Assembly: GCA_001604135.1 (NCBI GenBank)
Contig: LVAT01000008.1
Span: 62,001-126,000 of the forward strand
Source of the DNA: Clostridiales bacterium Firm_14
GTDB taxonomy: Bacteria > Bacillota > Clostridia > Saccharofermentanales > Saccharofermentanaceae
Length of the DNA: 64,000 nucleotides
Reading direction: 5' to 3'
Of the stretch, positions 3,625 through 55,862 are shown in pieces. Both the position numbers and the translations under genes were made by a program. The stretch's first letter is position 1. Every line of letters begins with the position of its first letter. The notes under the pieces were generated by a model, which worked only from the letters and a program-made list of their open reading frames with translations, was not told the DNA's origin and did not search any database.

Positions 3625-4901
3625 TATTTATTTCCGGATATCCTTGTGTAAACTACTCCGTTTTCGAGTCCCTTGCCGCCGGTCTTTAAGATAGCCATCT
3701 CCTCAACGGTTACGAGCTGAAAACCTTCCTTAACAAGGGCAGGAACGATCTTCTTCGTGGCTTCTGCTGTTGACTTGTAGAGATCATGCATAAGTACGAT
3801 GTCTCCGTCTTTGACCTTGCCTATTATCTGACTGCAGACTTTGTCGCAGTCTTTGCTCTCCCAGTCACGCGAATCTACGCTCCAGAGAATGATGGGGCAT
3901 CCGCAAGCCTTTTTAAGGGTATCGTTATATCTGCCTTCCGGCGGTCTTAAATAAACGGACGGCTTTCCTGAGATCCTTACGAGCTCATCATCAGTGCCCT
4001 TGAGCTTTTCCTTGATCTTCTCCTCAGAGAGTTTTGTGAGAACGTTGTGGTTATAAGTGTGGTTGCCCTGTTGGAAACCTAATTCCGCCTCGCGCTTTGC
4101 CTGATCTTCGTTCCAGGAGATCCTGTCGCCTACAACGAAGAATGTTGCTTTCTGATTGTATTCCATAAAAACGTCGATGATCGCATCCGTATAAACGGAA
4201 GGCCCGTCATCATATGTTAAGGCGACCATCTTCTTGGAGCCGTCGATCTCGCGGCAGACGTTTCCTTCGGCATCGAAATAGTAAAGGTGATCGTTATCGT
4301 AGGCTCTGCAGTCCTTCAGCATCTTGCCGCCGATAAAGCCTTTCTTTGTTCCGTTCTGATCTTCGACGATGCCGTCTAATGCCACTCCGGTACTCTCGTC
4401 GAAGCAGTAGGTCTCACCGTTGTCCGTGACCATTCCCTTGACCATGAGGCCTGTCTTTTTGTCGAAGAAATAGTCCTTGCCTTCAACGGTTGTAAGGCCT
4501 GAAGCGGCTACGCCGTCTTTGTCGGAGTAGTATTTGCCTTCAGAAGTCTCGATCCAGCCGGTGCGCATCTTGCCCGTCTTGGGATCGAAATACTTATATA
4601 CATTATTAACCTGCTGGCGGCCATACATCATGACTCCGTCACCGTCGAAAAGATAATTGCTGCCTTCGATCTGCTTTTCGCCTGTTGCCATGAGCCTTGT
4701 ATCAGGATCGAAATACCTGACAGCCTTGTTCTCCATGGTCTGCATGCCTGTTACGGGTGCACCGGTAAGATCGTAATAGTAAGTTCCTTCAGCTGTCTTA
4801 ACCAAGCCTCTTTTTACGAAGAAGATCTCGTAGGCTGCAAATCCGCACACCAAAGCTGCGACAAGCCCTGCGGCTAAGCCGATAATGAGTTTTTTGTTCA
4901 T
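3624..4901 (-). CDS. Membrane-anchored polysaccharide deacetylase with cell-wall-binding repeats
   Basis: This 425-residue protein has an N-terminal signal anchor (residues about 5-28). About eight 20-residue aromatic repeats follow (about 32-215, such as YYYDLTGAPVTGMQ and YFFDKKTGLMVKGM), resembling choline- or glucan-binding wall repeats. A NodB deacetylase domain occupies about 222-410. Its motifs are TYDDGP (D231, D232), HTYNH (H281, H285), RPPEG (319-323), DSRDW and LMHD (H372). The metal ligands Asp and two His are present. The usual RPPYG is RPPEG here. It likely removes acetyl groups from peptidoglycan or another N-acetylated wall glycan. It precedes and overlaps the transglutaminase-like lipoprotein by one base. 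Confidence 0.88.
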   Translation of the reverse strand: MNKKLIIGLAAGLVAALVCGFAAYEIFFVKRGLVKTAEGTYYYDLTGAPVTGMQTMENKAVRYFDPDTRLMATGEKQIEGSNYLFDGDGVMMYGRQQVNNVYKYFDPKTGKMRTGWIETSEGKYYSDKDGVAASGLTTVEGKDYFFDKKTGLMVKGMVTDNGETYCFDESTGVALDGIVEDQNGTKKGFIGGKMLKDCRAYDNDHLYYFDAEGNVCREIDGSKKMVALTYDDGPSVYTDAIIDVFMEYNQKATFFVVGDRISWNEDQAKREAELGFQQGNHTYNHNVLTKLSEEKIKEKLKGTDDELVRISGKPSVYLRPPEGRYNDTLKKACGCPIILWSVDSRDWESKDCDKVCSQIIGKVKDGDIVLMHDLYKSTAEATKKIVPALVKEGFQLVTVEEMAILKTGGKGLENGVVYTRISGNK

Positions 4902-5090
4902 AGCTAATGCCTTTCTGTTTTTATCCTATTAATCCCGAGAACAAGACTATCACGGTATCGGAAAAAATTGCGTGATTTTCGTGTCATTTAGAAGATAAAA
5001 GTTTTAAAAGACCGTGAACGTTCAAATTCATTACTTTTTCATTCAATTTGTGGCGGGAAACAGGAGCAAGTAAAGTGAACTCAATTTTTC

Positions 5091-5120
5091 TTGATTCCCA
5101 CGTGATTTCTGATATTTTAT
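5091..5120 (+). promoter_or_regulatory. Possible promoter of the 5170 lipoprotein gene
   Basis: TTGATT at 5091 is followed by an AT-rich TATTTTAT at 5113-5120, giving a spacer of 16 or 18 bases depending on which hexamer is the -10. It lies about 50 bases before the start codon, which has a GGGAGG site. The rest of the 268-base gap shows nothing clear. Confidence 0.4.
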
Positions 5121-5169
5121 AAGTAGCGCTCCGGAATAAGCGCAAAAGGAATAAAGGGAGGATGTAGAA

Positions 5170-6378
5170 ATGAGAAAATTCAGAAGTATTGTATCTTTAG
5201 GTCTGATCCTGGCAATGGCGATGTCGGTTGCATCATGCAACGGCGCAACAGACGTTACTGAGGAAGATATCACATACGAGACCGCACCTGTCGTAACTGA
5301 GACTGAGACAGAAACGGAAGCAACAAAACCCACTGTTGATCCTTGGGGTCAGATCTATGTTGCCGATGAGATCGTCGGTGCCACTGCCATAGCTGATAAG
5401 CTTCTCAGCATGAGCTTTGAAGAGGCTCTATACAGTCACGAAATCGGTGAATTTTATAATGGCTCGGCTGCTTTTTCAGGTGATCATGCCCGTTCTGTAA
5501 TGTTTCCCGAGACCGGCTATAAGATTGAAGGAAACGAATTAAAGTGTGTCTTTATTTGGAAGGATAAGGCTAAAGACACAGTTGCGAAGATTACTTTTGC
5601 TTCCAGAAAACTGGAATATGTTCCGTCAACAGAGACGGAGGCTAAGATTGCTGCAGATGATATGAATTACGATGCCGAGACGGCTTTCACGAAGATAACA
5701 TCAAAGCTCGAGGCTGCATTCGGCAGTGATTATAAGACATCTGACACAACGGATCTTAAAGCGGCTAAGAGTGAATGCAGGGTATGGCAGCATAACGGCA
5801 GGGATATCGCGGTAACTTATGCGTTAGACTGCTATGGCATTACCGGTAACAATGAATTCAAGGTTGATGTATACCCCACCGGCGGTGGCGGATCTTCATT
5901 AGCTCCGGAAGACGAAGCATTCAGACAGATGTTCAGTAAGATCGAAAGCAGCATGGGGCAGGATAATGAAACTGTTAAAGCGCTTTTGGAAGAGCAGTTA
6001 GGCGTGGAGCTGAAAGGCGGGAGTAAAGATAAGTCGATCTGCTACACCTACTACTATGATGTCGACCTTACTATTGAAGGTGTTCCTTTCAACATGATAG
6101 AAATCCATACCAATATAGGCGATGGAAAAGTATATGAAATCTATTTCCGTAAAGATACAAGCAAGCGTTCTGAGATAGACAGTTATGAAGAAACGTTCAA
6201 AACAAAGCTTTCATCTACTTTCAGCGATCGTTTCATACCTACAAATTCCACTTCGTATAAAGGTGTATTTTGCGGAATGGGAAGAGGCACATACTGTATA
6301 ATTAGCGACTTGTATATTGATGATATGAACAACTTCTTCTTTGTTATCATCAACGCTGAATATCTGAGAGAGAAATAA
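5170..6378 (+). CDS. Unrecognised lipoprotein
   Basis: This 402-residue lipoprotein has lipobox V-A-S-C (Cys23) and an acidic Thr/Glu-rich linker (about 27-55, with repeated TET) before the globular part. Two halves of about 165 residues follow, divided by a GGGGSS stretch at about 239-244. Each half appears mixed alpha/beta, but no catalytic motif is visible. GGGAGG lies 8 bases before the ATG, and a strong intrinsic terminator follows the stop, so this is probably a single-gene transcript. Function unknown. Confidence 0.75.
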   Translation: MRKFRSIVSLGLILAMAMSVASCNGATDVTEEDITYETAPVVTETETETEATKPTVDPWGQIYVADEIVGATAIADKLLSMSFEEALYSHEIGEFYNGSAAFSGDHARSVMFPETGYKIEGNELKCVFIWKDKAKDTVAKITFASRKLEYVPSTETEAKIAADDMNYDAETAFTKITSKLEAAFGSDYKTSDTTDLKAAKSECRVWQHNGRDIAVTYALDCYGITGNNEFKVDVYPTGGGGSSLAPEDEAFRQMFSKIESSMGQDNETVKALLEEQLGVELKGGSKDKSICYTYYYDVDLTIEGVPFNMIEIHTNIGDGKVYEIYFRKDTSKRSEIDSYEETFKTKLSSTFSDRFIPTNSTSYKGVFCGMGRGTYCIISDLYIDDMNNFFFVIINAEYLREK

Positions 6379-6418
6379 AACCACGGGCTGATAAGAGTTA
6401 TTAAGATTCATAATAATA

Positions 6419-6448
6419 CACCCGGAGCGATTTGCTCCGGGTGCTTTT
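6419..6448 (+). terminator. Intrinsic terminator after the 5170 lipoprotein
   Basis: CACCCGGAGC (6419-6428) pairs perfectly with GCTCCGGGTG (6434-6443) across a 5-base loop, followed by CTTTTAT. Confidence 0.9.
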
Positions 6449-6549
6449 ATGTCCGGTAAACCTTGTTGGTATCCTTTGAAGCTGACGATCTTATGCTGTA
6501 GAATTCAATAATAAGTGTGTTGCTATACTTTATCTGAAGGGGAATTTGC

Positions 6550-7014
6550 ATGGGGTATATTTTCGATATCAGAAAGAAACTGGGACATGATCCGATCATT
6601 CTTACAGGTTCTGGAGTAGTCGTTGTAAACGATAGAAATGAGATACTTTTGGGAAGACGTACCGACAACGGATACTGGGCTTATCCTGCCGGTTCAATGG
6701 AACTTGCAGAGAGTTTTGAAGAGTGTGCCAGAAGAGAGGTTGAGGAAGAGACCGGTCTTCTGTGCGGAGATCTGGAACTCTTGATGATCAGATCCGGCAA
6801 GGATACTTACTATGAATATCCTAATCAGGACAAGGTGTATTTTGCAGTCGTAATCTACATCTGTTTTGACTACTCAGGCGAGATGAAGGTTCAGGAAGAA
6901 GAGGTTATAGAGCAGGCATTTTTCCCGATCGATGCTCTTCCTGAAAACCTGTCACCGGGCACTGTCATAGTCATAGAGAAGGCTAAAGAATTTCTTGCAA
7001 AGATGAATAAATAG
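6550..7014 (+). CDS. Nudix hydrolase
   Basis: This 154-residue protein has a fully canonical Nudix box at residues 48-70: Gly48, Glu54, R62-E63, E66-E67 and G69. It should therefore hydrolyse a nucleoside-diphosphate-linked substrate in the cytoplasm with a divalent metal. The conserved LGRRTDNGYWAYPAGSMEL segment before the box resembles MutT/ADP-ribose-type enzymes, but the substrate cannot be read from sequence. Its intact box contrasts with the degenerate one in the regulator at 770-1531. AAGGGG lies 7 bases upstream of the ATG. It follows a terminator, so it should have its own promoter. Confidence 0.88.
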   Translation: MGYIFDIRKKLGHDPIILTGSGVVVVNDRNEILLGRRTDNGYWAYPAGSMELAESFEECARREVEEETGLLCGDLELLMIRSGKDTYYEYPNQDKVYFAVVIYICFDYSGEMKVQEEEVIEQAFFPIDALPENLSPGTVIVIEKAKEFLAKMNK

Positions 7015-7090
7015 CATATCGCAAGGCCAAGAAAAAATGGAACAAATCTGAGTAATAATGTGTTTTCGTCAGAATATGGGGATTATGAAT

Positions 7091-8194
7091 ATGAAAAGAC
7101 TGATATCAATTCTGTTAATGCTCGTTATGCTTATCACTCTGGCTGCTTGCGGCAAACCATCCGGAGTGCCGAATTCTTATGGCTTTGAGGATGAGCCGGA
7201 AGAGAATTCATCTGAATATATAGTCGATAATGAAGATCAGGCTCAAAAGATAATAACATGTTCACACAAAAATCTTTTCGGGCTCGAGAAGATTGTTTTA
7301 TTCAACAACAAAGCTGTCGTAATCTTTGATAAGAAGACCAGCGATAAGACCAGGGGATTCTTGGGCAAAGGCAAAAATGCGGTTAAGTATGTAACGTTTA
7401 GTTTTAATAATCTGAGTCCGATGGAAACTGAATTTAATGTTTCCAAAAAAGACGGCAAATATATATTAGAAGCAGATTGCCGGTATGAAGAATCAGATAT
7501 GATCGATCCTGACATATCAGTGAAAATTACGAGGATCTTTATTAAAGGCCAGCATGATTCAATGAATGTTCAGATCTATGCTGACGATCTTGAATTGAAT
7601 CTTTATAAGGAAAACCATGACTCTTTTACACAGTCATACGAGTCTGCAAAAACTGAATGGTCAGGTGTAAAAGCAGAGATATATGAATCTGAAACGGAAG
7701 TTAGCATGGGTGTTTTTTATTCGTACGAGCTGGATCTGACTGATTACTGGAATCAGGATCTTGAATGTGAAGCAGACGGCGTCATATACAAAATTACGGG
7801 TTATGGTTATTACTTAAGTCTTACGATAGAAAACACCGGTGAAGAGGTTAAGACAATAGCCGGAACTCGTTATCTCCAGAGAGTTAAAGACGGTGTCTTG
7901 ATCAATCTTGGCCGGGACCGGCGTGAAACGATTTATCAGCATAGGAAATTCAAAGATCTGCCGGTAGTTAAGATATGGAAAATGCCATCTGATGATTCCG
8001 GAGTTTCATGGCAGCACGGCGTCGATCCGGATATCAGTCTCAAAGAAAATGAGACGATAGAGATCAAGCCCGGGCAGCGCTACTATGTGGAAATCCTGGT
8101 TGAGGATTTTGACGTCTATAAAGATGGAACGTATAGACTTTCTTTTGGGAAAGCCCGGCTTGATTTCAACTTGGAATGGATAGTTATTTCCTGA
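7091..8194 (+). CDS. Unrecognised lipoprotein
   Basis: The ATG at 7091 is preferred because it gives a compact lipoprotein signal (MKRLISILLMLVMLITLAAC, Cys20) and lies 9 bases after GGGG; in-frame ATGs at 7058 and 7085 are also possible. The mature protein is about 348 residues, mostly predicted beta, and ends in an immunoglobulin-like segment (ETIEIKPGQRYYVEILVEDF, then TYRLSFG), a pattern seen in proteins that measure or bind extracellular ligands. No enzyme motif is seen. The next gene encodes another small lipoprotein. Confidence 0.75.
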   Translation: MKRLISILLMLVMLITLAACGKPSGVPNSYGFEDEPEENSSEYIVDNEDQAQKIITCSHKNLFGLEKIVLFNNKAVVIFDKKTSDKTRGFLGKGKNAVKYVTFSFNNLSPMETEFNVSKKDGKYILEADCRYEESDMIDPDISVKITRIFIKGQHDSMNVQIYADDLELNLYKENHDSFTQSYESAKTEWSGVKAEIYESETEVSMGVFYSYELDLTDYWNQDLECEADGVIYKITGYGYYLSLTIENTGEEVKTIAGTRYLQRVKDGVLINLGRDRRETIYQHRKFKDLPVVKIWKMPSDDSGVSWQHGVDPDISLKENETIEIKPGQRYYVEILVEDFDVYKDGTYRLSFGKARLDFNLEWIVIS

Positions 8195-8387
8195 CCTGAC
8201 GGAGCAGATATAAAAAAGCTTCAGCTTAGTGTGTTTTTTCATATTGCACGTTTTTGCATAATAAATCCTTTATCTGTTAATATAGAAACGGTTGGGCTTT
8301 TTGAGATCCCGAAAAGCAGGGGCGTGATCTATATTTCAAAAACCATTTTAAGATCGAAGGTTTTTTCATGGTAAAGGAGGGTGTCAA

Positions 8388-9023
8388 ATGAGAAAAAAGT
8401 CATTCGCGCTGGTAATATTACTGGCAGTTGTTGTTTGCTGTTTGTCAGGTTGTTTTCTGTACAAGGGCTTTTCTTATTCCGGTGTTGTTGAAGAGCTGGA
8501 AAGTTATGGAATGCAAAGACTCTGGAAAACTGAAGATCTGAATGATCTGAAGAACAGGCTCGAATCAGGCAGTACGCCTTCTTCATTCTATGCAACTGAT
8601 GACAAGGATGAAGCGGGGGCAATATTCGACAGCTTTTTGACATCGACAGCCGGTACCCGTAGTGATGTTGTGAAGAAAATAATCATTGCAGTTGATAAAG
8701 AATCGTACGAGGGCGAACAATTCACTTCGGAAGTTTATTATATTGATTTTCAGAATAGCAAAGATGCAGAAAATGCCTTTTATGCAATGCATCAGTACAA
8801 TCAGAAATCTCCTAAATTCGAGAAGGGTAAGAAATTCGGTTATCAGTACTCTCTGGCTTATGGCGGAAACTATGCTTATACCATGAGACGCGGAGTATAT
8901 TTTAGCGGAAGTACCCTTGTTATCATTCACTGCTTCCATAGAACCGGTTATAAGTGGGGCTTTACCGCTAATATCTACGAGCATCTCGGCTATGTCGATC
9001 CGATTACTCTGGCTGACAGCTGA
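8388..9023 (+). CDS. Small unrecognised lipoprotein
   Basis: This 211-residue protein has a lipoprotein signal ending in C-L-S-G-C (Cys22) and an AAGGAGGG ribosome binding site 6 bases before the ATG. The mature part contains a segment with alternating Tyr/Phe residues (YYIDFQNSKDAENAFYAMHQYN) that resembles a ferredoxin-like fold, but no known motif is visible. The gap before it (8195-8387) holds a weak AT-rich hairpin (AAAAACC...GGTTTTTT, about 8339-8366). Confidence 0.7.
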   Translation: MRKKSFALVILLAVVVCCLSGCFLYKGFSYSGVVEELESYGMQRLWKTEDLNDLKNRLESGSTPSSFYATDDKDEAGAIFDSFLTSTAGTRSDVVKKIIIAVDKESYEGEQFTSEVYYIDFQNSKDAENAFYAMHQYNQKSPKFEKGKKFGYQYSLAYGGNYAYTMRRGVYFSGSTLVIIHCFHRTGYKWGFTANIYEHLGYVDPITLADS

Positions 9024-52952: not shown

Positions 52953-54041
52953 ATGGCAATAGATAAGAGCAAGACAGACCTTATAAAAGCGAAGTATGAA
53001 GAGCTGACCGGAACATTAAGTGATCCGGCCGTTGCTTCACGTCCGGAAGAATACACTAAGTATTCCAAGGAACTTGCAGCCCTTAACCCGCAGGTCGAAG
53101 CCATCCGCAGCTATGAGGCTTGCGAGAAGGAGATCGAAGGGATCCTGACGCTTTTGGAGAGCGGTGATCTGGGCGGCGACGATGAGATGAGAAGTCTTGC
53201 AAATTCTGAGCTTGCCGATGCCAAGGACAGGCTCGCAGCACTAGAGAAAGAACTCATGATCTATTTAACTCCCGGAGATCCCAGAGACAACAGATCGGTT
53301 ATCCTCGAGATCAGGGCAGGCGCCGGCGGTGAAGAGTCCGCGCTTTTTGCAGGCGACCTATTCAAGATGTATAAGGGATATGCTGCGCTTAAGGGCTTTG
53401 ATGTAAGCATCGTTGATGAGAGCCCTACGGAGCTCGGAGGCTATAAAGAGATCGTTGCCGAGATCGAGGGCACCAGAGTTTATTCCAGACTGAAGTTCGA
53501 GAGCGGCGTTCACAGAGTACAGAGAGTTCCCGTAACCGAGTCAGGCGGAAGGATCCATACATCGACCGCGACAGTCGCGGTTCTTCCTAAGGCTGAGCCT
53601 ACCGATGTCGAGATCAATCCGAATGATCTTAAGATCGACAGATTCAGGGCGTCGGGCGCAGGCGGACAGCATATCAACAAGACTTCATCTGCAATCAGGA
53701 TCACGCACCTTCCGACCGGAATGGTAGTTACCTGCCAGGACGAGAGATCCCAGATTCAGAACAAGGAAAAGGCCATGGAAGTCCTGCAGTCGCGTTTGTG
53801 GGATATTGCACATCAGGCTGATGTGGACAAGCATAACGATGAGAGAAAATCCCAGGTGGGAACAGGAGACAGGTCCGAGAGGATCCGTACATATAATTAC
53901 CATCAGGGCAGGGTTACCGATCACAGGATCGGATTGACACTTTATAAATTGGATGCGATACTTGCCGGCGATCTTGACGAGATAGTTGACGCTCTGACGT
54001 TGGCTCAGGCAGCCGAGAACGCAGGCTCAGGCGAAGATTGA
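52953..54041 (+). CDS. prfA: Peptide chain release factor 1
   Basis: This 362-residue protein releases peptides at UAA and UAG. The PVT anticodon-like motif (193-195, the RF1 form rather than RF2 SPF) and the catalytic GGQ (237-239) in SGAGGQHINKTSSA are present. The start fits the usual RF1 N-terminus (KAKYEELTGTLSDP), but no Shine-Dalgarno is visible upstream of the ATG. Sua5 follows 12 bases after the stop; prmC (the RF methyltransferase gene that often neighbours prfA) is absent here. Confidence 0.96.
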   Translation: MAIDKSKTDLIKAKYEELTGTLSDPAVASRPEEYTKYSKELAALNPQVEAIRSYEACEKEIEGILTLLESGDLGGDDEMRSLANSELADAKDRLAALEKELMIYLTPGDPRDNRSVILEIRAGAGGEESALFAGDLFKMYKGYAALKGFDVSIVDESPTELGGYKEIVAEIEGTRVYSRLKFESGVHRVQRVPVTESGGRIHTSTATVAVLPKAEPTDVEINPNDLKIDRFRASGAGGQHINKTSSAIRITHLPTGMVVTCQDERSQIQNKEKAMEVLQSRLWDIAHQADVDKHNDERKSQVGTGDRSERIRTYNYHQGRVTDHRIGLTLYKLDAILAGDLDEIVDALTLAQAAENAGSGED

Positions 54042-54053
54042 TAAGAGGATCTT

Positions 54054-55862
54054 ATGGAACGCGAAAAGATATATAAGAAAACATTACTTATAGATTCATC
54101 AGACGGCAAGGGCATAAAGGACTGCGCTGAGCACCTTATAAATGGTGAAGTTATCGGCTTTCCCACAGAGACCGTGTACGGCCTCGGCTGTGATGCGAGG
54201 AATGGTGAAGCGGTTAAGAAGGTTTTCGAGGCAAAGGGACGTCCTGCAGACAACCCGCTGATCTGCCACATCGGAGATAAGGAGCAGATAAGGGGCATCG
54301 TTTCCGAGATCACGCCTCTGGCGCAAAAGCTCATTGACGCTTTCATGCCCGGCCCTATTACGGTTGTAATGAAAAAGGCAGACTGCATTTCGGATCAGAC
54401 CACTGCAGGTCTTGATACCGTCGGAGTCAGAATGCCTTCCCATCCCGTTGCAAACAAGTTCCTCAAGGCATGCGGAGTCCCTGTTGCAGCGCCTTCGGCG
54501 AACCTCTCCGGCAGACCTTCACCCACGGGAGCAAGATCTGTTCTCGAAGATATGGACGGGTATATCTATGCGATTATTGACGGCGGGGATTCGGAATATG
54601 GTCTGGAATCAACCGTTGTCGACTGCACCGGAACGACACCGGTCATCTTAAGACCCGGCGCCGTTACGAAGGCAGATATCGATGCGGTACTTAATGGAGG
54701 AGAAGCAGTTATGTCAGGTTCATTAGCTGATAAGGAGACGCCCAAGGCGCCCGGAATGAAGTACCGCCACTACGCGCCTTATGCGCAGGTCGAGATAATG
54801 AAGATGCCCGAGGGAACTAAGATCGAAGGCGACGACGCCATGGGTTCCGACGGCAAGATCAGCCAAATAACATGTACCGTAGAAGATCTGAAGAAGCTTT
54901 CCGACGATGAAGCCAAGGAACTTGTAAATATCGTATCGCCGTTTATCTTAAGGTCGCGAGAGATCTTATCTTCCAACCCGTTTGCAAGGATCGGCCTTTA
55001 CTGCGGCAGTGAGATCAAGGCGATGTATGACAAGATGAACGACAAGCTGTTGTCTGCTCACACTGAATTCTGCGTTTACGGAAAGACAATTGATGTTTCG
55101 GCAGCTTCCCACGGACTTTTCGAGGGCCTGAGATATCTGGACGTTCAGGAAGTGGACGTTATCCTTGCTCAGGGATTTGACGGCGAGGGCTTATCAGTCG
55201 CTTACATGAACAGATTATCCAAGGCAGCAGGCAAGAAGGAAGCGCTCGTTCCCGGAATGCCCGCTCCCGCAAGGCCCGCCAGAACGCCTCTGCCGCTTGA
55301 CGCTTTTAAGGATACATTCACGGCTTCGGTGCTCTTCGTGGATGACAACAACACGTCTCTGTCCGCCTGCATGGATTCTCTCATGAGAAGAATGCTCGAA
55401 AAGAACGAACCTTACATTTCCAACAGGGAAAGCGACACGGGCGTAGAGATCTACTGCGAATCGGCAGGCCTTACCGCCATGGACGGCATGGATCCTGACA
55501 GCCAGATGGATAAGGCTGTTAAGGAGATCTCCGGCGTTGGCATAAACTCAATAGAATCAAGAAGGGCAAATCCCGCCATTTACGACTGCAACGACCTCAT
55601 ACTGACTGTAAGGGATGAACAGGCGTTCTCCATAATCAAGGCGTTCCCGGAGATAAAGGAAAAGGTTTTCTCACTGTCGACGTTCGCTGCAGCTAACGGC
55701 CTTGTCATGAAGGATTCGTCCGGAAAAGTCATGTCCATCTCCGTACCTGACCCCACGGGAGAGAACTATGAGACATATCTTCACACCGCGAAGGCTCTGA
55801 ATGCATGGCTTGAGATACTGTTCCCGTACATCATAAAAGAGCTCGGAGCAGCAAGGATCTGA
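54054..55862 (+). CDS. Sua5 threonylcarbamoyl-AMP synthase fused to degenerate YwlE-like phosphatase domain
   Basis: This 602-residue protein has an N-terminal YrdC domain (about 12-205), with GFPTETVYGLGCDARN and SANLSGRPSPTGA, and a Sua5-type C-terminal domain (about 225-385). Together they make threonylcarbamoyl-adenylate for t6A tRNA modification. Residues about 420-602 align with low-molecular-weight protein phosphatases/YwlE arginine phosphatase (SAG, the DP loop and Tyr tail), but the active-site loop CTGNTCRS is VDDNNTSLS here. Cys is replaced by Asp430 and Arg by Leu436, so catalysis is not possible. In many Bacillota ywlE is a separate gene beside ywlC. RBS: AGAGGATCTT. Confidence 0.9.
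   Translation: MEREKIYKKTLLIDSSDGKGIKDCAEHLINGEVIGFPTETVYGLGCDARNGEAVKKVFEAKGRPADNPLICHIGDKEQIRGIVSEITPLAQKLIDAFMPGPITVVMKKADCISDQTTAGLDTVGVRMPSHPVANKFLKACGVPVAAPSANLSGRPSPTGARSVLEDMDGYIYAIIDGGDSEYGLESTVVDCTGTTPVILRPGAVTKADIDAVLNGGEAVMSGSLADKETPKAPGMKYRHYAPYAQVEIMKMPEGTKIEGDDAMGSDGKISQITCTVEDLKKLSDDEAKELVNIVSPFILRSREILSSNPFARIGLYCGSEIKAMYDKMNDKLLSAHTEFCVYGKTIDVSAASHGLFEGLRYLDVQEVDVILAQGFDGEGLSVAYMNRLSKAAGKKEALVPGMPAPARPARTPLPLDAFKDTFTASVLFVDDNNTSLSACMDSLMRRMLEKNEPYISNRESDTGVEIYCESAGLTAMDGMDPDSQMDKAVKEISGVGINSIESRRANPAIYDCNDLILTVRDEQAFSIIKAFPEIKEKVFSLSTFAAANGLVMKDSSGKVMSISVPDPTGENYETYLHTAKALNAWLEILFPYIIKELGAARI

Follow-up and report, generated by a model that had tools for sequence, protein, structure and literature searches.

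The locus considered here raises the question of why a Sua5 protein, the first enzyme of t6A tRNA modification, should end in a domain that resembles a YwlE-type protein-arginine phosphatase and yet has lost the catalytic cysteine and arginine of that family. The gene lies in the window, i.e. the whole 64 000-nucleotide stretch of DNA that was analysed, which belongs to a genome (G000) of 3.1 Mb that is 99 % complete and to a genus of gut bacteria called Saccharofermentans here, after the record titles of near relatives.

A Sua5 protein with an additional domain

The features of the locus are as follows.

52953..54041, + strand: prfA (peptide chain release factor 1), directly upstream; GGQ motif in translation
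54043..54049, + strand: AAGAGGA, a probable ribosome-binding site separated from the ATG by 4 nt, as judged from sequence
54054..55862, + strand: Sua5-YwlE-like fusion ORF, ATG start, 602 aa plus stop
54135..54659, + strand: YrdC/Sua5 catalytic domain, residues 28-202 (Pfam Sua5_yciO_yrdC, 2e-58)
54663..55232, + strand: Sua5_C domain, residues 204-393 (Pfam, 4.3e-25)
55311..55859, + strand: YwlE-like pseudophosphatase domain, residues 420-602 (Pfam plus profile alignment)
55341..55364, + strand: degenerate P-loop DDNNTSLS, residues 430-437 (C[TS]GNTCRS in sister genera)
55749..55754, + strand: general-acid loop Asp566-Pro567, retained (alignment of fused proteins)

Over its N-terminal 400 residues the protein resembles Sua5/YwlC (TIGR00057, PF01300 plus PF03481), scoring 199.7 bits against a cut-off of 123.2 for the NCBIfam model TIGR00057 (L-threonylcarbamoyladenylate synthase) and keeping intact Lys61, Arg63, Ser148 and Asn150, which we take to be the catalytic KxR and SxN residues of Sua5; unlike Sua5/YwlC, it has an additional C-terminal, phosphatase-derived domain. 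The sole other PF01300 match of the window genome is a 764-aa frame, presumably HypF, judging by its length. A release-factor GGQ motif lies upstream on the same strand in 91 of the 93 loci that have at least 500 nt of upstream sequence.

For the C-terminal domain, the Pfam match to LMWPc (PF01451) covers residues 459-584 (4.9e-6; 27.2 bits, above the cut-off of 23.2) and by itself misses the P-loop half. In an alignment of 101 fused proteins, the loop of the window protein reads VDDNNTSLS, with Asp430 (nt 55341-55343) in the Cys column and Leu436 (nt 55359-55361) in the Arg column of the CX5R loop; the SAG block is kept as Ser470-Ala471-Gly472, and across the genus the DP loop has its Asp in 78 of 80 rows and its Pro in all 80. 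A profile of the genus domain, to which 80 rows were offered, was compared with other profiles by HHalign, the alignment reaching the loop: it matched 28 stand-alone low-molecular-weight (LMW) phosphatases of the same bacterial family with 97.5 % probability (E 5e-12) and the sister-genus domains with 100 % probability (E 9e-39), versus 0.3 % for YrdC against phosphatases and 0.5 % for the degenerate domain against YrdC as unrelated control pairs. Judged from these alignments, the domain is homologous to the LMW phosphatases and the placement of its loop is secure. Its known counterpart is YwlE/PtpB, the protein-arginine phosphatase of the LMW-PTP superfamily, to which it is homologous by profile and with which it has the SAG block and DP loop in common; the fused domains of sister genera also share with YwlE/PtpB the arginine-type loop CxGNTCRS, whereas the domain of the window's genus is fused to Sua5, has lost the pair of Cys and Arg, and has an acidic loop. 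The first-pass annotation had read the gene as Sua5 joined in frame to a YwlE-family domain, a reading borne out by the 602-aa ORF, Pfam, TIGR00057 and HHalign, and its statement that Asp430 and Leu436 replace Cys and Arg while SAG and DP remain agrees with the alignment of the 101 fused proteins.

Neither Pfam nor NCBIfam assigned the domain to any other family. AlphaFold predictions of its structure were poor (pLDDT 49 and 36, from shallow alignments of 27 and 23 close-relative rows), and the first of these models (pLDDT 49) gave no Foldseek match at E <= 0.001. By eye, DDNNT might suggest the hhhDxD or VVDDN of a HAD-like or receiver-like loop; this reading was dropped given the overwhelming homology to the sister LMW domains, and it is also disfavoured by the Asn at position 432 of the window protein.

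Spread of the fusion and fate of its loop

A protein search of the family matched 107 of 115 genomes, spanning all five genera, with some matches partial or to other proteins (G038, 70 residues; G086 and G111, phosphatase part only; G079, merely residues 41-164 in a 764-aa frame). Genus relatives have the whole fusion protein at identities as low as ~50 %, and full-length domain matches are 78-97 % identical, in records titled Saccharofermentans, Ruminococcaceae, Oscillospiraceae, Clostridia or Clostridiales whose sources include goat and sheep omasum, horse faeces, water-buffalo rectum and red deer. Most relatives are metagenome-assembled by title; two, AB4001 (L056) and YAD3003 (L060), are without a MAG mark. 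Proteins were read from 81 of the 83 matched genomes of the genus, the window's included (G038, a fragment, and G079, another protein, were left out), and from 20 of 24 sister-genus genomes in four genera (G094, G100, G107 and G111 were left out). Loop counts use 80 genus rows, the loop of G086 lying beyond its contig, and loci L033-L060 were omitted from one alignment as near-duplicates of genus loci.

The same fusion occurs with an intact loop, i.e. Cys, phosphoarginine-type Thr and Arg, in 20 of 20 sister-genus proteins from four genera. Their loop, C[TS]GNTCRS, has Thr at position 431 in seven and Ser in 13, so that the pattern VCTGNTCRS expected by the first-pass annotation is met with in these orthologues. 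Within the genus, none of 80 proteins has both Cys and Arg: the two columns read C/L in 22, C/M in four, D/L in 36, D/M in three, S/L in 12, S/A in one and G/R in two. The spelling of the loop varies by lineage (DDNN, CDDN, SDDD, CDKN, CKNN), Gly432 is gone in all 80 rows, an acidic residue (Asp or Glu) stands at 431 in 75, and at least one acidic residue falls within 430-433 in 76/80 genus rows vs 0/20 in the sisters. The relatives that keep both Cys and Arg thus belong solely to other genera, and what might have been a single damaged gene is a fusion conserved across genera with a loop altered throughout one of them. Three sister-genus loci (L091, L095 and L096, all in genus g5) have fused Sua5 open frames of 719-785 aa, measured stop to stop, in which the YrdC domain is preceded by an N-terminal extension, low in complexity and some 180-250 residues long.

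In a tree of 115 fused proteins, built with the loop columns included and without the partial genes G086, G058 and G068 and the unfused order-level G129, G149 and G174, the genus forms a single clade of 78 tips. Parsimony places a retained Cys and an Arg already replaced by Leu at its base, with six changes per site; the order of losses is not certain, and not strictly Arg first, because two members (G034 and G068, one of which is on the tree) have Arg with Gly in place of Cys.

Beyond the family, 17 of 20 loci from the rest of the order, which were picked because the search model spanned both the Sua5 and phosphatase parts, have one uninterrupted frame and an intact CX5R loop, the other three being broken by stops; the intact-loop fusions among the loci read fall in two other families of the order. 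A search of 245 genomes of the class gave, among the matches listed, stop-free frames over both parts in families f20 (eight genomes), f30 (one) and f73 (one), while in many other class genomes the model crosses in-frame stops between Sua5 and YwlE, as neighbouring genes would, and stand-alone Sua5 open frames of ~360-420 aa occur in many genomes of order and class. On this distribution the fusion is old or recurrent and is not itself the surprise. A recent fusion in the window lineage was ruled out, the fusion being common to the sister genera and also present in other clostridial families. The first-pass annotation had supposed that a neighbouring gene was fused and then lost its activity; the second half stands, in that catalytic residues were lost and, because intact-loop fusions occur in four sister genera and other families of the order, lost after fusion, whereas the fusion was not an event of this lineage.

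Selection on the degenerate domain was gauged by the Nei-Gojobori method, leaving out pairs with dS <=0.05 or >=2. Median dN/dS for 28 window-clade proteins is 0.057 in the degenerate domain, 0.043 in YrdC and 0.073 in Sua5_C, and for 14 more divergent proteins of sister genus g5 it is 0.238 in the intact phosphatase domain and 0.111 in YrdC, all of these being rough values since median dS is near 1.5, close to saturation. Within the domain, 21 positions reach a conservation of 95 % or more in the genus and do not do so, with the same residue, in sister genera; they include Glu465, Tyr467, Asp482, His577 and Tyr592 and are spread along the domain. From these substitution patterns, the domain looks strongly constrained rather than decaying.

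Kinase, receptor and other phosphatases

YwlE opposes the arginine kinase McsB, and the presence and state of McsB in the family were therefore examined. The kinase family PF00217 was found in 108 of 115 family genomes. Scores are 67-127 bits in the genus, and those of the sister genera are 193-214 bits, the one exception being an end piece with 58 bits. Elsewhere in the order, the matches listed have 157-225 bits, except for a cut frame in G170 (138 bits) and a weak pair in G116, the better of which has E 4e-8. No McsB match was found in five genomes (G122-G126; genera g8 and g9) of another family of the order. The genus keeps mcsB, and in the window genome it stands between mcsA and clpC in a cluster that lies outside the window.

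ctsR: G000 contig 12 (L134), 8283-8873, - strand, cluster member
mcsA: G000 contig 12 (L134), 7579-8250, - strand, cluster member
mcsB: G000 contig 12 (L134), 6561-7700, - strand, cluster member, without catalytic glutamates
clpC: G000 contig 12 (L134), 3893-6571, - strand, cluster member

McsB residue numbers (R29, R176) and the mapping of arginine kinase glutamate numbers onto McsB are used here as we assume them, positions being set by motif. McsB was read from 53 of the 79 genus genes and 14 of the 29 sister genes found. Both catalytic glutamates, that of NEEDH and that of GE(H/K)S, are present in 14/14 sister proteins and gone from all 53 genus proteins (with a gap in place of the second in one of them), which sets these proteins apart from known McsB arginine kinases. 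Passages of PMC11075012 describe the equivalent glutamates of arginine kinase as binding, holding and polarising the guanidinium group. R29 is likewise found in 14/14 sister vs 0/53 genus proteins and R176 in 14/14 vs 7/53, other active-site arginines remaining in 2 to 7 of the 53, while all 53 keep the NEEDH His and the NTG-motif Gly. Among the 65 genomes with both genes read, all 53 from the genus are without both chemistries and all 12 from sister genera keep both; this joint loss is one shift seen in related rows, not 53 independent events. Rough dN/dS values for McsB are 0.080 (22 window-clade genes) and 0.070 (eight intact genes of sister genus g5). The McsB of the window genome matches PF00217 with 83 bits (cut-off 22.4), and its best solved relative is McsB 6tv6 (E 3e-22). 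With NF002194 it scores 138.5 bits and a sister McsB 371.5, neither reaching the cut-off of 385; the NCBIfam cut-offs do not tell an intact McsB from a decayed one.

The reader of the mark has fared less uniformly. ClpC binds phosphoarginine via E32 and E106, according to passages of PMC12583610. Both of these pocket glutamates are present in the 14 sister ClpC genes read, and in the 33 read from the genus the E32-equivalent is found in 13 and the E106-equivalent in 26, with both in 13 and neither in seven. The ClpC of the window genome has lost the E32-equivalent and retained that of E106; when that ClpC alone was scanned, Clp_N was absent from its Pfam matches at E 0.001. Loss of the whole phosphoarginine receptor is not supported, as E106 is kept in 26 of 33 genus proteins. 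As read from its pocket residues, the ClpC receiver is decayed in part, which speaks against a complete loss of phosphoarginine recognition, and some phosphoarginine signalling may persist in the genus because its reader has not been uniformly lost.

A search of the window genome for LMWPc gave just two matches, the fused domain and a phosphatase of 153 residues whose loop reads VCHGNICRS, and no other YwlE-type phosphatase. The latter protein is of the phosphotyrosine type, with Ile at the position favouring tyrosine over arginine; the rule, from passages of PMC8001253, is that Thr in the P-loop gives phosphoarginine specificity and Ile favours tyrosine, and all 20 sister domains have Thr there. 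As to the separate active ywlE that the first-pass annotation proposed looking for, none was found in the window genome. A scan of 85 genus genomes, many of them incomplete, with an active sister domain as query (E <= 1e-6) found a separate YwlE-type frame, contig-end fusion pieces excluded, in one (G056), besides fusions, contig-end pieces and weak matches in two frames of 159-176 aa. The G056 phosphatase (L167, contig 61) has an intact loop, CLGNTCRS, and because it is 58 % identical to a sister-genus fused domain, contamination or transfer is the likely origin on sequence grounds. A stand-alone LMW phosphatase frame with an internal TAG lies at 5595-6017 of contig 2 in G033.

Competing explanations and significance

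The explanation that we regard as somewhat better than an even bet is that arginine-phosphorylation chemistry was abandoned and the proteins were kept as binding or regulatory scaffolds, writer and eraser having become paired pseudoenzymes in one genus. The C-terminal domain would go back to a protein-arginine phosphatase of the YwlE type that the family ancestor already had joined to Sua5, as suggested by the intact fusion in four sister genera, and phosphatase and opposing kinase would both have lost catalytic residues in one genus: once the kinase stopped marking arginines, the eraser would be free to lose its chemistry, or the reverse order may have applied. Since dN/dS is low in both, each protein is presumably held by purifying selection for a non-catalytic role, most likely protein-protein binding. 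McsB would continue, together with McsA and ClpC, to remove CtsR or to serve as an adaptor of ClpC, and the Sua5-borne pseudophosphatase may provide the t6A synthase with a module for docking or stabilisation that perhaps remains in contact with McsB or ClpC. A binding or regulatory role of the domain in t6A synthesis had been put forward tentatively in the first-pass annotation. Passages of PMC5506225 cut both ways: in Bacillus subtilis under thiol stress, McsB removes CtsR from DNA without kinase activity, whereas the same review has McsB kinase activity needed for ClpC activation and adaptor function, which argues against a simple pseudokinase adaptor. That an arginine phosphatase should be joined to Sua5 is sensible because, in passages of PMC7546277, B. 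subtilis McsB and YwlE control the stability or level of the t6A enzyme TsaD through Arg282.

The main rival to this scaffold reading is that the domain is a structural prop, needed by Sua5 for folding or dimerisation, with McsB kept for unrelated reasons and no signalling involved. The constraint on the domain does resemble that on Sua5_C (dN/dS 0.057 and 0.073), and a domain joined to a protein long ago may become one that it cannot do without; against this, Sua5 stands alone (~360-420 aa) in many genomes of order and class and so does not generally need the domain, a bare prop would not require genus-only charged and aromatic positions or a patterned acidic loop, and the decay of McsB in the same genus is left unexplained. 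We consider this unlikely, though still to be taken seriously. A rebuilding of the loop for a new ligand or chemistry, in which the acidic loop might accommodate a metal ion or a positively charged peptide, is less probable again: the near-constant acidity at 431 and within 430-433, the total loss of Gly432 and the retained DP loop, which on the model of known LMW phosphatases would sit beside it, are what such a rebuilding might leave, but the family scans name no other family and the lineage-to-lineage variation fits relaxed chemistry too. Very improbable is a system that still works, McsB and the phosphatase domain using substitute residues. The nucleophile Cys persists in 26 of 80 loops (C/L or C/M), the McsB His and Gly in 53/53 and ClpC E106 in 26/33, but the P-loop Arg is lost in 78/80, the two McsB glutamates and R29 are gone in 53/53, other active-site arginines are confined to 2 to 7 of them, and the equivalents of the lost glutamates have the guanidinium-binding role described in PMC11075012. 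Virtually no weight attaches to the idea that one gene was damaged, or that a lone metagenome-assembled genome was wrongly put together: even though most relatives are metagenome-assembled, there are 81 genus sequences from 81 genomes, the window's included, two relatives are without a MAG mark in their titles (AB4001 and YAD3003), and dN/dS is low.

Sua5, YwlE, McsB and pseudoenzymes are all already known kinds. In pseudokinases and pseudophosphatases generally, catalytic residues are lost and the protein is conserved, as here; unlike in those cases, writer and eraser of one modification have here been lost together in one bacterial genus. Within the open-licence literature, no description was found of a Sua5-linked pseudophosphatase with a genus-wide pseudo-McsB, and nothing on a pairing of Sua5/YwlC with YwlE, on McsB E212A or on arginine phosphorylation in Saccharofermentans. 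In that literature, inactive McsB is not described in the passages on McsB of two papers that also deal with pseudokinases, titles and the beginnings of abstracts hold nothing relevant on bacterial LMW pseudophosphatases or threonylcarbamoyl-tyrosine phosphatase fusions, and passages of PMC8370763 do not name McsB catalytic residues.

Extending the scaffold reading, it is conceivable, and we suggest it tentatively, that a genus-wide non-catalytic network of pseudokinase McsB, Sua5-borne pseudophosphatase and partly altered ClpC couples heat-shock proteolysis to t6A synthesis without phosphoarginine. Automatic annotation is likely to label these proteins phosphatase and kinase, which would be misleading here. 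The separability of McsB roles, kinase on the one hand and ClpC/CtsR adaptor on the other, is unsettled in passages of PMC5506225, and the genus would offer a natural experiment on the matter. The fusion also links arginine phosphorylation with the t6A modification of tRNA, the phosphatase domain being covalently part of the first t6A enzyme.
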